Notes under the pieces: generated by a model | Database searches by the model: none | What the model was told of the DNA's origin: nothing | What the model saw: only the letters and a program-made list of their open reading frames with translations | Source of the DNA: Gammaproteobacteria bacterium HGW-Gammaproteobacteria-13 | Lineage (GTDB): Bacteria; Pseudomonadota; Gammaproteobacteria; Pseudomonadales; Pseudomonadaceae | Reading direction: 5' to 3' | NCBI GenBank assembly: GCA_002840155.1 | Contig: PGZH01000005.1 | Location: 1-64,000, forward strand | DNA: 64,000 nt | Program-made: the position numbers and the translations under genes | In this document: piece by piece, positions 19,248 through 51,474 of the stretch | Layout of the letters: the number at the start of each line of letters is the position of its first letter | Numbering within the stretch: position 1 is the stretch's first letter

Positions 19248-19389
19248 GCAGGCCGTTGAAAAACGTAGGCGAGGCAGGCAAGACAAGGCAAAAACGGCCG
19301 AGGAAGCGGAGTTTACGAGCTGTAAATGAGCATTCCGAGGCCGTTTTTAACGCAGTATTGCCAACGCAGGTAGTTTTTCAACGGCCTGC
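19248..19389. repeat. Palindromic dispersed element, copy A
   Basis: The 142-bp element has a perfect 17-bp terminal inverted repeat (GCAGGCCGTTGAAAAAC at 19248-19264 and its complement at 19373-19389). Its 59-nt core hairpin runs from AAAAACGGCC (19290) to GGCCGTTTTT (19348), with the conserved inner AGTTTAC/TGTAAAT arms and a 4-nt loop. It has no coding capacity. It occupies most of the 360-bp gap (19090-19449) between the reductase and the exonuclease. I see nothing else there apart from the two genes' 5' leaders. Copies B, C and D are listed below. Confidence 0.9.
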
Positions 19390-19449
19390 CAACAGGCTTT
19401 ACCCAACGCCGAAACTGCTTCCATACTCGCTGCACGCTAAGGAGGGCTT

Positions 19450-20001
19450 ATGCAGCATTGGCTGGTAATCGACCTGGAAGCCACCACCGAAGAAGGCGGT
19501 TGGCCGGTCACAGATATGGAAATCATCGAAATCGGCGCCAGTCTGGTCAACGCTGGCGGCCATGAAATCGAGTATTTCCAACGTTTTGTGCGGCCCACAC
19601 GACGCCCGCATTTGACCCATTTCTGTCGTCAGCTCACCCAAATCAGCCAAGCCGATGTCGATGCCGCCGCGCCACTCAGTGCGGTGTGGGCACAATTCGA
19701 ACGCTGGCTGCTGGCCCATCAAGCACAACTGGCGGGCTGGGCCAGCTGGGGCGACTACGACCGCCGCCAGTTCGAACAGGAATGGCGCGCCCATGGGCTG
19801 GAGAGTTACCTGAGCCAGATCCCGCATATCAACCTGAAAAAACGCTTTGCCGAAGCGCGTCAGCTGCCTAGCCCAATCGGCCTGAAAATGGCGCTGAATC
19901 TGGCGGGTTTGCAGTTCCAGGGCCAGCAGCACCGCGCCCTCACCGATGCGCGCAATACCGCCCGGCTGCTACCGCTGGTTTTGCCCGTGCAAAGCAGATG
20001 A
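19450..20001 (+). CDS. DEDDh-type 3'-5' exonuclease
   Basis: The 183-aa product matches the ERI1/KapD-like branch of DEDDh exonucleases. The metal ligands are visible: D8 and E10 in VIDLEATT, an Asp in SWGDYDRRQF, and His/Asp in QHRALTDARNT. The rest of the chain is the usual RNase-T-like fold without additional domains. It acts on single-stranded 3' ends. The natural substrate is unknown. The Shine-Dalgarno TAAGGAGG precedes the ATG by a few bases. It is followed by a terminator at 20092. Confidence 0.88.
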   Translation: MQHWLVIDLEATTEEGGWPVTDMEIIEIGASLVNAGGHEIEYFQRFVRPTRRPHLTHFCRQLTQISQADVDAAAPLSAVWAQFERWLLAHQAQLAGWASWGDYDRRQFEQEWRAHGLESYLSQIPHINLKKRFAEARQLPSPIGLKMALNLAGLQFQGQQHRALTDARNTARLLPLVLPVQSR

Positions 20002-20091
20002 CGAAGAAAAAACGCTTGGGCATACTGGCGGGCCTTTTTTATGGTCAGCCATCCCTGGCGACCACCCCGAGGGCCGTCGCTACACGACGTT

Positions 20092-20115
20092 AAAAATGGC
20101 TCCCGGCCATTTTTT
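20092..20115 (+). terminator. Terminator after the exonuclease gene
   Basis: AAAAATGGC (20092-20100) pairs with GCCATTTTT (20106-20114) across 5 nt and is followed by T. A second small hairpin (CTGCCA/TGGCAG, 20122-20137) follows before the ppnP Shine-Dalgarno. Confidence 0.7.
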
Positions 20116-20173
20116 GATGGCCTGCCACTCCTGGCAGCCAGCCTTTTCAATCCCCCCTTTCGAGGAACTGCAG

Positions 20174-20455
20174 ATGTTCAAGGTCAATGAATACTTCGAC
20201 GGCACCGTCAAATCCATCGCCTTCGGCATGGCTGAAGGCCCGGCCACCATTGGCGTGATGGCTGCAGGCGAGTACGAATTCGGCACCAACCAGCTGGAAA
20301 TCATGCACGTGGTCGCCGGCGCCCTGACCGTGAAACTGCCAGGCAGCGACAGCTGGGAAACCTTCACCAGCGGCAGCAAATTCACCGTACCGGCCGACAG
20401 CAAGTTCCAGCTCAAGGTGGCGGCTGATACCGCTTACCTGTGTGAATATCGCTAA
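20174..20455 (+). CDS. ppnP: Pyrimidine/purine nucleoside phosphorylase
   Basis: The 93-aa cupin-fold protein of the PpnP (YaiE/DUF1255) family splits nucleosides with phosphate. It starts MFKVNEYFDGTVKSIAF, as expected, and contains GVMAAGEYEFGTNQLEIMHVV and the C-terminal FQLKVAADTAYLCEY. I chose ATG 20174 because it matches the family N-terminus and has GAGGAA upstream. A longer frame from 19946 overlaps the exonuclease gene and is not supported. A strong terminator follows. Confidence 0.93.
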   Translation: MFKVNEYFDGTVKSIAFGMAEGPATIGVMAAGEYEFGTNQLEIMHVVAGALTVKLPGSDSWETFTSGSKFTVPADSKFQLKVAADTAYLCEYR

Positions 20456-20471
20456 GCCATAAAGCGCCTGA

Positions 20472-49435: not shown

Positions 49436-49450
49436 GTCCCCTCCCCAAAT

Positions 49451-50227
49451 TCAGTCCGTTAGGCCTTGCGCCACACATTCACCACCGCGCCACAACCGCC
49501 ACTCACCCGGCTGGTAAAGCGTCCAGCTCTCGTTATCGGTCAAGGGTTCTGTGGCCAACACGCTGACCACGTCATTGGGCGTGGTTTCCGCCTGGAAATC
49601 CACCTGCATATCAGCATCTTTCAAATGCGCCGGGCCAAACGGTGCACGCCGGGTGATATGCGCCAGCTTGCTGCTGCAAAAACTGAACAGCCAATCGCCA
49701 TCGCTGAGCAGGCAGTTGAAGACGCCGTGCTGACGATAGCCGGCGCAGGCACTGACCAGGGTGGGCAGCAACTGCTCCACCGCCACCGGTTCGGGAAAGG
49801 CCTGGCGCAGGCGATTAAGCAGATCACAAAAGGCCGCTTCGCTGTCGGTGTCGCCAATCGGCCGGTAGTTATCCAATTGCGGGGCGAAATCGGCGAGCTG
49901 ACCGTTATGGGCAAAGCACCAGTTGCGCCCCCACATCTCGCGCACAAAGGGATGGGTATTGGCCAGGCAGACGCGCCCGACATTGGCCTGACGGATATGC
50001 CCGATCACCACTTCGCTCTTGATCGGATAACGCTGCACCAGCTGCGCCACTTCAGATTCGCTGCTGGCACGCGGGTCCTGAAACAGCCGCAGACCGCGCC
50101 CTTCATAAAAACCGATGCCCCAGCCATCGCGGTGCGGGCCGGTACGCCCGCCGCGCTGCATCAGGCCGGTAAAGCTGAAGACAATATCGGTCGGCACATT
50201 GGCGCTCATGCCCAGCAATTCACACAT
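49451..50227 (-). CDS. Class II glutamine amidotransferase (YafJ-like)
   Basis: The 258-aa N-terminal-nucleophile amidohydrolase has Cys2 as nucleophile after removal of Met (MCELLGMSANVPTDIVFSF). The substrate pocket is shown by GGRTGPHRDGWGIGFYEG, HIRQANVG, NTHPFVREMWG-WCFAHNGQLADF and DTDSEAAFC. Typical YafJ enzymes are about 255 aa. The acceptor substrate is not known. I chose ATG 50227. The upstream frame would extend into the HIT gene. Its start overlaps the end of the HIT gene by 8 nt. Confidence 0.92.
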   Translation of the reverse strand: MCELLGMSANVPTDIVFSFTGLMQRGGRTGPHRDGWGIGFYEGRGLRLFQDPRASSESEVAQLVQRYPIKSEVVIGHIRQANVGRVCLANTHPFVREMWGRNWCFAHNGQLADFAPQLDNYRPIGDTDSEAAFCDLLNRLRQAFPEPVAVEQLLPTLVSACAGYRQHGVFNCLLSDGDWLFSFCSSKLAHITRRAPFGPAHLKDADMQVDFQAETTPNDVVSVLATEPLTDNESWTLYQPGEWRLWRGGECVAQGLTD

Positions 50228-50663
50228 TGCGTAACGCCTCGCGCAGCTGTTGCGCCTCAATCGCCAGGCGCGATTCGATGCGTTTGCGCGCCAGCGGCAG
50301 AAAACGCGTCAGGGCGCGCCAGAGCAACTGCATGACATCACCGCGGCGCCGTGGAATCAGGTGCAAATGCAGGTGCGGCACGTGCTGGTTGGCGGTCGGC
50401 CCGTCATTGATCAAGAAATTGATGCCCTGCTCGCCATACCCGGCCGCGCGCAAGGCAGCGGCCATGCGCTGCGCCAGCGGCAGCAACTGCTCGCAGGCTG
50501 CGGTGGAGAGGTCTTTGAGAAAGGGCGCGTGTGCGCGGCTGACAATCAGCACATGGGCCGGGCGCAGGGGGAAGATATCCAGCAGGACGATAAAGTGCTC
50601 GTCCTCATAAATACGCTCGGCAGGCAATTGCTCAGCGGCAATTGCACAGAACACACACTCCAT
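50220..50663 (-). CDS. HIT family hydrolase
   Basis: The 147-aa product contains the histidine triad HVPHLHLHLIPR (about residues 95-107) and the N-terminal CVFCAIAAEQLPAERIYED. HIT proteins hydrolyse or transfer nucleotides such as AMP conjugates. The C-terminal extension (RRRGDVMQLLWRAL and onward) is basic and longer than in the minimal Hint proteins. The Shine-Dalgarno GGAGCGG precedes the ATG. It is followed by the amidotransferase gene in an overlapping arrangement. Confidence 0.9.
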   Translation of the reverse strand: MECVFCAIAAEQLPAERIYEDEHFIVLLDIFPLRPAHVLIVSRAHAPFLKDLSTAACEQLLPLAQRMAAALRAAGYGEQGINFLINDGPTANQHVPHLHLHLIPRRRGDVMQLLWRALTRFLPLARKRIESRLAIEAQQLREALRNV

Positions 50664-50749
50664 AACCCGCTCCTTATTTCTGCTGGGCCATGCTGAACGG
50701 CTGTGTGCGTTGGCGCAAGGGCAACGGCGTCGGGCGACGCCGCAGCAGC

Positions 50750-51223
50750 TTACAAACGTGGCTCTACGCGCAGGCGACGGTCGCCACGGGAATCGTAACG
50801 GGTGTCGCCGAAATCCTGCTCATCACGCGCCATCATCTCGCGCAGGGTCGGCTCGTCATCGGCAATCGGGGCTGGCCCCTTGCGCGCCTGCCACCAACGC
50901 TCCACGGGCCAGCGCACGGCAACAAACAGCAGGTACAGGACAAACACAATCAGCGCATACATGCTCAGGTCAGCAACCGCTCGCCAGGCGTTGTTGCCCA
51001 CGCCAAGCAGCATGTCCATGGCGGCAATCGCCACCGCAGGGGCGAACTGCTCCTTGCCGGGGTCGACAATGGTCGGGCTGAACAGCAGCACCAACACCAG
51101 CACGCGCAGCGGCTCACGCAGGTAACGCCACATCCAGCTGGTCAGGCGAAACCACACCAACAGGCAACCAAGAGCCGCCACCAGATAGGCGCCCCAGGCA
51201 AGCAGGTAGTCGTTTTCAGTCAT
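50750..51223 (-). CDS. Small membrane protein of unknown function
   Basis: The 157-aa product has four predicted hydrophobic segments: near residues 8-25 (AWGAYLVAALGCLLVWF), 35-52, 62-75 and 84-105 (LSMYALIVFVLYLLFVAVRW). A hydrophilic tail rich in Arg, Asp and Glu follows (FGDTRYDSRGDRRLRVEP). I chose ATG 51223 (MTENDYLLAWG). The start upstream at 51376 runs into palindromic copy D and is not credible. No family that I recognise matches well. It is divergent from the oligopeptidase gene. Confidence 0.7.
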   Translation of the reverse strand: MTENDYLLAWGAYLVAALGCLLVWFRLTSWMWRYLREPLRVLVLVLLFSPTIVDPGKEQFAPAVAIAAMDMLLGVGNNAWRAVADLSMYALIVFVLYLLFVAVRWPVERWWQARKGPAPIADDEPTLREMMARDEQDFGDTRYDSRGDRRLRVEPRL

Positions 51224-51334
51224 AAAACGCAAATTCTCTGGCATTGAAGACCGGACGGCGCACGCGCATAAGCGCGCAGATTTCAGCAGCCGACGGGCGA
51301 AGTGGCGCTTATGATAACGGCTTTTGCCTGCTTT

Positions 51335-51474
51335 GAACCTGTTCAAAAGCTCGCGAGCTAGAGACATGCAAGGCAAAAACAGGCGAGGACGCGGAGTTTA
51401 CAAGTTGTAAATGAGCAGTCCGAGCCTGTTTTTAACGCAGCAGGGCCGACGCGCAGCAGGTTTTGCACAGGTTC
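51335..51474. repeat. Palindromic dispersed element, copy D
   Basis: The 140-bp element has 14-bp terminal arms (GAACCTGTTCAAAA from 51335 and TTTTGCACAGGTTC ending 51474, one mismatch). Its core hairpin runs from 51375 (AAAAACAGGC) to 51433 (GCCTGTTTTT). With copy B it also shares a CTCGCGAGCTAGAG stretch inside the left arm. It occupies about half of the 295-bp gap between the membrane protein and oligopeptidase B genes. The remainder holds only their leaders. Confidence 0.9.

Follow-up and report, generated by a model that had tools for sequence, protein, structure and literature searches.

A family of palindromic, gene-less repeats in Pseudomonas and other bacteria with one conserved folded core and several classes of outer arms

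A stretch of 64,000 nucleotides from the genome of Gammaproteobacteria bacterium HGW-Gammaproteobacteria-13 (contig PGZH01000005.1, positions 1 to 64,000; hereafter the window) carries four imperfect palindromes of 140-144 nt, here called copies A to D. We analysed these copies together with their relatives elsewhere in the same genome and in other bacteria. On balance we favour the view that they are gene-less elements resembling miniature inverted-repeat transposable elements (MITEs), likely moved in trans by transposases of the IS5 family, and that their conserved inner hairpin, as predicted here, works as a folded single strand. In kind the family is a MITE; its new feature is a constant folded interior beneath exchangeable ends.

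Pairing and near-fixed letters in the core

The four copies had been noticed in a first-pass annotation made from the window alone, which took them for repeats of one family, with a covarying hairpin that is maintained in its folded form. On re-reading, the palindromes were found at the places it had given, with edges at 19249-19388, 24160-24299, 30624-30767 and 51335-51474, and all of the paired differences that it had listed were present (CGGCC/GGCCG, CAGCC/GGCTG, CCGGC/GCCGG and CAGGC/GCCTG, as well as GGAA/TTCC versus GGAC/GTCC). Each copy folded better than every one of 200 shuffled versions, with z values of -9.14 (A), -9.59 (B), -7.51 (C) and -5.26 (D). R1, a covariance model built on the 84-nt core from 29 copies, returned 104 matches at E≤0.1 and 85 at E≤1e-9 from the 4.55-Mb genome that contains the window, so that the family extends well beyond the four copies first seen.

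Two alignments were fitted to the structure of the model. The first (A4) holds 88 matches from 76 hand-chosen loci across taxa, with several matches in some loci and one match taken from the reverse strand of L311, and leaves out many further Pseudomonas loci. The second (A5) has 69 rows from 68 of the 104 copies of the own genome, copies with large inserts being left out and one row being the reverse strand of L035. Across taxa, 95.4% of the cells were paired, and 27 of the 28 pairs and 551 of 2365 cells had changed on both sides. Shuffled controls reached 72.6% and 150 cells, with none of 500 as high as the alignment, and controls with slid partners gave at most 45.5% and at most 104 cells. 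Within the own genome 98.1% of the cells were paired; 25 of 28 pairs had changed on both sides, as had 224 of 1930 cells.

The unpaired letters were mostly 88-99% identical in the alignment across taxa. In internal loop 1, CAAG.GC (left, 83-99%) faces AACGC (right, 79-98%); in internal loop 2, GA (93 and 94%) faces GA (88 and 89%), and in internal loop 3, GGA (93-99%) faces GA (99 and 94%). A bulged A was kept in 98%. The CAAGGC/AACG loop lies outside the pattern that we used to scan for heads of the hairpin, and AAGGC was found within 28 nt of 60 of 85 heads, AACG of 65 and both of 48, as against 3.6%, 7.6% and 0.4%, respectively, of random places on the same contigs. Since the stems stay paired through their changes while the unpaired letters are near-fixed, the folded strand is the conserved entity of the core, and stems that are free to vary around fixed internal loops point to a fold that something recognises. 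The near-fixed letters make a stronger case for selection on the fold than could be drawn from four copies and, with the family-wide alignments, they bear out the claim of the first-pass annotation that the folded form is maintained.

The family is neither confined to the own genome nor present throughout Pseudomonadota. Three close relatives, chosen as the nearest in a genus-wide search in which 351 of 398 genomes were scored (88, 87 and 84% identity over 3 kb), had 66, 59 and 62 matches to R1 at E≤1e-3. From an even sample of Pseudomonadota, R1 at E≤1e-6 gave matches in 82 of 398 genomes, representing 35 of 212 genera, and 316 genomes were without a match. The exact head pattern occurred in at least 118 stretches when one genome per species was searched (84,980 species); for a pattern of 20 fixed letters that allows three loop lengths, we estimate one or two chance matches, assuming equal base frequencies. 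Among the matches listed were Pseudomonas, Halomonas, Salinicola, Marinospirillum, Microbulbifer, Chromobacterium, Vogesella, Nitrosomonadales and Mariprofundales, and also contigs labelled as Bacteroidota (Alistipes, Tannerella, Prevotellaceae, Flammeovirgaceae, Chitinophaga and Pedobacter). These labels are record titles, and the contig labelled Pedobacter (L311, 60% GC) is possibly contamination. That contig aside, R1 gave E values from 3.5e-13 (L336) to 5.4e-5 (L284) on those Bacteroidota-labelled loci that were scored with it, values which are flattering because the loci had been selected by their heads. Eight long frames from seven of these loci were scanned for protein families: six loci carry ordinary chromosomal ones (FtsH, MiaB, SucC, MetG, ProS and NagB-like above the cut-off, CcsB below it) and one locus none. 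Carriage of the family by phages was rejected, as there was no match in 50,697 phage records and only two viral contigs had the exact head pattern; two end patterns were found in no viral contig. Fourteen of 72,556 plasmid records matched, none over more than 80% of the query, and these matches gave the first hints of CTAG and TTAA duplications.

Outer arms, target sites and candidate transposases

The core is flanked on each side by an arm of about 17-20 nt. The two arms are complementary within a copy and, over the family, belong to unrelated sequence classes, which we assigned, like the module classes below, by fuzzy text match. Class 1 (GARCCTGTTTACGATC and variants) accounts for 69 of the 104 copies in the own genome, class 2 (CAGGCCGTTGAAAAACG) for 22, class 3 (GAGGGTGTTTACAAACG) for 4 and others for 9; further classes (GGTTCTGTACGAAAAGTC, GGAGCCTCTGATTAACG, GGGCGTGTTGACATT) are present in other genomes and loci. 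Within class 1 (67 copies), arms fitted their own partners at 13.5 of 19 positions and swapped partners at 10.9 of 19, the best of 200 swaps reaching 11.5. The outer arms resemble the terminal inverted repeats of transposons, in several unrelated classes that surround one core. Neither these classes, nor the presence of the core across taxa, nor the hairpin modules described below had been noted in the first-pass annotation, because other genomes were needed to see them. The features of the window copies are as follows; G130, G279 and G175 are genomes of relatives.

19249-19388, plus strand: copy A, whole element, with class 2 arms CAGGCCGTTGAAAAACG / GTAGTTTTTCAACGGCCTG; site empty in G130, G279 and G175
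19245-19248, no strand: CTAG ahead of copy A; the 4 nt following the copy are CCAA, so without a matching duplication
19277-19361, plus strand: conserved core of copy A (R1, 102.5 bits, E 4.6e-27)
24160-24299, plus strand: copy B, whole element, with class 1 arms GAGCCTGTTTACGATC / GATCGTAAACAGGTTC; site empty in G279, G175 and G130
24157-24159, no strand: left target duplication of copy B, TTA (sequence re-read and comparison with relatives)
24300-24302, no strand: right target duplication of copy B, TTA (sequence re-read and comparison with relatives)
24187-24271, plus strand: conserved core of copy B (R1, 103 bits, E 3.2e-27)
30624-30767, plus strand: copy C, whole inserted stretch, whose arms, CCAGGTGCTGTGAGCAC / GTGCTCACATCACCTGG, form a separate class; G130 and G175 lack exactly these positions; no target duplication
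30656-30739, plus strand: conserved core of copy C (R1, 84.6 bits, E 1.6e-21)
51335-51474, plus strand: copy D, whole element, with class 1-type arms GAACCTGTTCAAAAGC / GGTTTTGCACAGGTTC; absent from G279, present at the same site in G130
51362-51446, plus strand: conserved core of copy D (R1, 104.2 bits, E 1.4e-27)

The empty sites are evidence that copies were gained or lost but do not identify the acting enzyme. Elsewhere in the own genome, L161 is cleanly inserted with a CTAG on either side, at a place where G130 has a single CTAG. Copy B lies between its two TTA, a target duplication, and copy D has TTT on its left and TTA on its right. Among 46 class 1 copies with readable ends, a flanking TNA triplet was kept on the right in 39 and on the left in 23.

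We searched 13 genomes for DDE transposases with PF01609 and obtained matches in nine. Six of these matches, with frames of 388 amino acids, were in G012, the genome of a relative, and the two whose ends we read (L425 and L427) are insertion sequences of 1,331 bp with CTAG abutting CAGGCCGTTGAAAAA at both ends, that is, with the ends and the duplication of class 2. NCBIfam places the 388-residue protein of L425 among the IS5 family transposases (263.7 bits against a cut-off of 140), and it contains the PF05598 and PF01609 domains. Next to its ends, the interior of the insertion sequence is unlike the hairpin element. Movement by IS5-type transposases is likely for class 2, as judged from these common ends, and possible for class 1. 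Two shorter insertion sequences, L411 (G001) and L421 (G008), have ends of the GGTTCTGTACGAAAAGT type about 0.9 kb apart. An earlier scan of the loci for paired insertion-sequence ends 0.5-4 kb apart had returned none, and the candidate partners surfaced only through the PF01609 search. A further insertion sequence of the IS5 family in G012 (L409, 861 bp) has CTAGGGTCTGTTGCCGTTTC ends, which match no arm class described here. The earlier statement that no transposase lies near the window copies agrees with our check, made for PF01609 only, in which the single match of the own genome was on another contig.

Extra hairpin modules were present at fixed internal points in 31 of the 104 copies, a count in which modules I1 and I4 overlap; elements that lack modules measure 140-144 nt. 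The modules comprise AGTAACAGCC..GGCTGG in the left arm, CTGGGCTCGCANNCGA inserted into one or the other of two GA steps, and a stretch of some 55 nt that follows GAGCATT. The AGTAACAGCC-type pattern, allowing at most one mismatch, was found at 32 places, compared with 3 for the reversed control. Seven such places were read beyond the known copies: five lay outside any copy, and two (L433 and L434) proved to be copies that R1 had missed. Small hairpins seem to nest in larger ones. The AGTAACAGCC..GGCTGG module was also seen standing alone at L449, L450, L456, L457 and L459 (around base 1500), twice at 160-300 nt from a second one, and is possibly an independent small mobile hairpin.

Proposed mechanism and alternative explanations

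In the mechanism that we propose, IS5-family transposases would recognise the outer arms as terminal inverted repeats and so mobilise the element in trans, a widely conserved protein would bind the internal loops of the core, and the core would act as a DNA hairpin, either in an exposed single strand or as a cruciform, rather than as RNA. Selection would act during spread and less on each settled copy. We favour action as a DNA hairpin because the copies lie either way to genes and turn over quickly. A more far-reaching possibility, which we offer tentatively and regard as less likely than not, is that the replicator is the folded core and not the ends: one mobile hairpin lineage in at least two phyla, with loops recognised by a protein of most bacteria, may have repeatedly swapped its terminal repeats to ride whichever IS5-type transposase was available. 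Such a coat of terminal repeats would be changeable because a palindrome that gains one new end can use it as the template for the opposite end.

Several observations weigh against the mechanism we favour. Terminal inverted repeats in common with an autonomous element were found for class 2 only (22 of 104 copies), and the commonest class, class 1 (69 of 104), had no partner among the PF01609-bearing insertion sequences of the 13 genomes. G028, G175, G301 and G441 carry copies, yet no PF01609 match was found in them; the one match in the own genome is weak and has other ends, and those at L411 and L421 are partial or interrupted. That a resident transposase drives copy number is unsupported by the PF01609 search. 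Copy C is a clean 144-nt difference without target duplication, and equal flanking triplets were seen in only 15 of the 46 class 1 copies with readable ends. When own copies were compared with the pieces of relatives, four shared their site with G130. Between copy D and its G130 counterpart there are a few single-letter differences, mostly uncompensated; in L121, relative to its counterpart, an A-T pair has become T-A and a T.G pair C-G, together with a broken pair and altered letters in otherwise fixed loops; and the G130 counterpart of L129 (L194) retains the arms with the core deleted. Copies thus deteriorate once they have settled, so that the paired changes seen over the whole family must have arisen mainly along lineages that were still spreading.

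Decay after insertion would also be expected of an ordinary MITE, a palindromic derivative of an insertion sequence in which paired changes arise by copying from arm to arm (template switching) and the fold has no function. This explanation, which we consider unlikely, agrees with the joint change of arms and stems, and with the comparison of L141 and its G130 counterpart, which are near-identical in the head and differ by whole mid-stem blocks, each well paired, and in their modules. These differences, and the wide ones between L104 and its counterpart, may be second insertions or exchange between copies. However, arm-to-arm copying would erase mismatches, yet the letters on both sides of the three internal loops are mostly kept across distant taxa at the identities given above, and it is the core that is conserved and not the ends that face the transposase.

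That the core is an RNA element (a trans-acting RNA, a cis-regulatory structured RNA or a two-way terminator) spread by transposition appears similarly improbable. Structured RNAs typically show paired stems around fixed internal loops, and T-runs follow the stem on both strands in many Pseudomonas copies. G.T cells outnumber A.C cells in two alignments (60 of 2278 versus 23, and 55 of 1861 versus 8), but this excess is expected from RNA and DNA alike and does not decide between them. The genomic setting speaks against action as RNA. By gene calls from a small codon-usage script, none of 103 copies lay inside a gene, one further copy being unplaceable, and the copies occurred in either gene orientation, with neighbouring genes co-directional at 65, convergent at 22 and divergent at 16. 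Gene ends read into copies 109 times, 44 at the left end and 65 at the right. Of these ends, 58 stop at the copy edge (49 right, 9 left), and the other 51 face the left end in 35 cases and the right end in 16; since the flanking triplet is often a stop codon, such edge insertions leave the gene whole. Moreover, copies come and go between close species, and the Bacteroidota-labelled copies are without T-runs. Copy turnover, mixed orientation and missing T-runs thus weaken the case for a terminator or gene-regulatory RNA.

AAGCGG is the rule for primosome assembly sites, and PriA is widespread; many heads read AAGCGG before the hairpin, like the phiX174 F-G intergenic region, but we rejected as highly improbable a PriA-bound site giving a replication start on single-stranded DNA, since the AA are stem letters that covary with their partners (copies C and D read ACGCGG, and the column is A in 84%) and since ten complete genomes with 230 matches, of which 150 were listed, showed no clear replication-strand bias (64 versus 86, P=0.086, with the terminus assumed opposite dnaA).

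Apart from the four copies, the window contains two cis-regulatory RNAs of known Rfam families, sucA-II (7841-8055, minus strand) and sucC (2000-2068, minus strand), and a 162-nt direct repeat with 79% identity (35121-35282 and 54876-55037) that is perhaps paralogous coding sequence.

Comparison with known elements

The fact that distant bacteria retain this interior beneath changing ends points to a function of the folded strand during the life cycle of a non-autonomous element. The conserved loop letters are named targets for mutation or for use as bait. In relatives of Pseudomonas, R1 marks up to about 100 unannotated features per genome. The ssNA-helix motif, which reportedly came from a 2017 survey of 224 candidate RNAs, is said to have a long helix with conserved internal loops and is suspected to act as single-stranded nucleic acid; it might be the same thing as the present core. 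ERIC, REP and REPIN elements are palindromic, intergenic and of high copy number, like the present family. They differ from it in size and sequence, REPs being 20-40 bp.

No match was obtained in Rfam 15 on any of the window elements, nor in 13 loci at permissive thresholds. Searches of the open-access literature by motif strings and by topic found no description of the family among the results listed, most subscription papers lying outside their reach, and passages of PMC8632094 and PMC6429828 name no such family; the first-pass annotation had likewise given no published name. MITEPsy1 of Pseudomonas syringae (PMC3189936) is alike in being short, multicopy and transposase-free, with inverted repeats that match an insertion sequence and a 4-nt CTAG or YTAA duplication. 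MITEPsy1, however, is described with a single set of ends (GGAAGGTCTGAAAAAGCC) in six copies, whereas in the present family one folded core comes in about 100 copies whose ends belong to several unrelated sets. The TIMEs, Tn3-derived miniature elements of Pseudomonas, are similarly non-autonomous with predicted long stem-loops, but they are about 262 bp long (PMC4133298), have 38-bp Tn3-type ends and are usually single copy. QMITE1 and QMITE2 of Coxiella are long palindromes with tens of copies per genome, but QMITE1 is reported without orthologues elsewhere and the elements measure 300-400 bp, or 150-190 bp with 7-11-nt duplications (PMC5896051). MITEs are usually seen as worn copies of one insertion sequence, with their ends conserved and their interior free; in the present family this is reversed.

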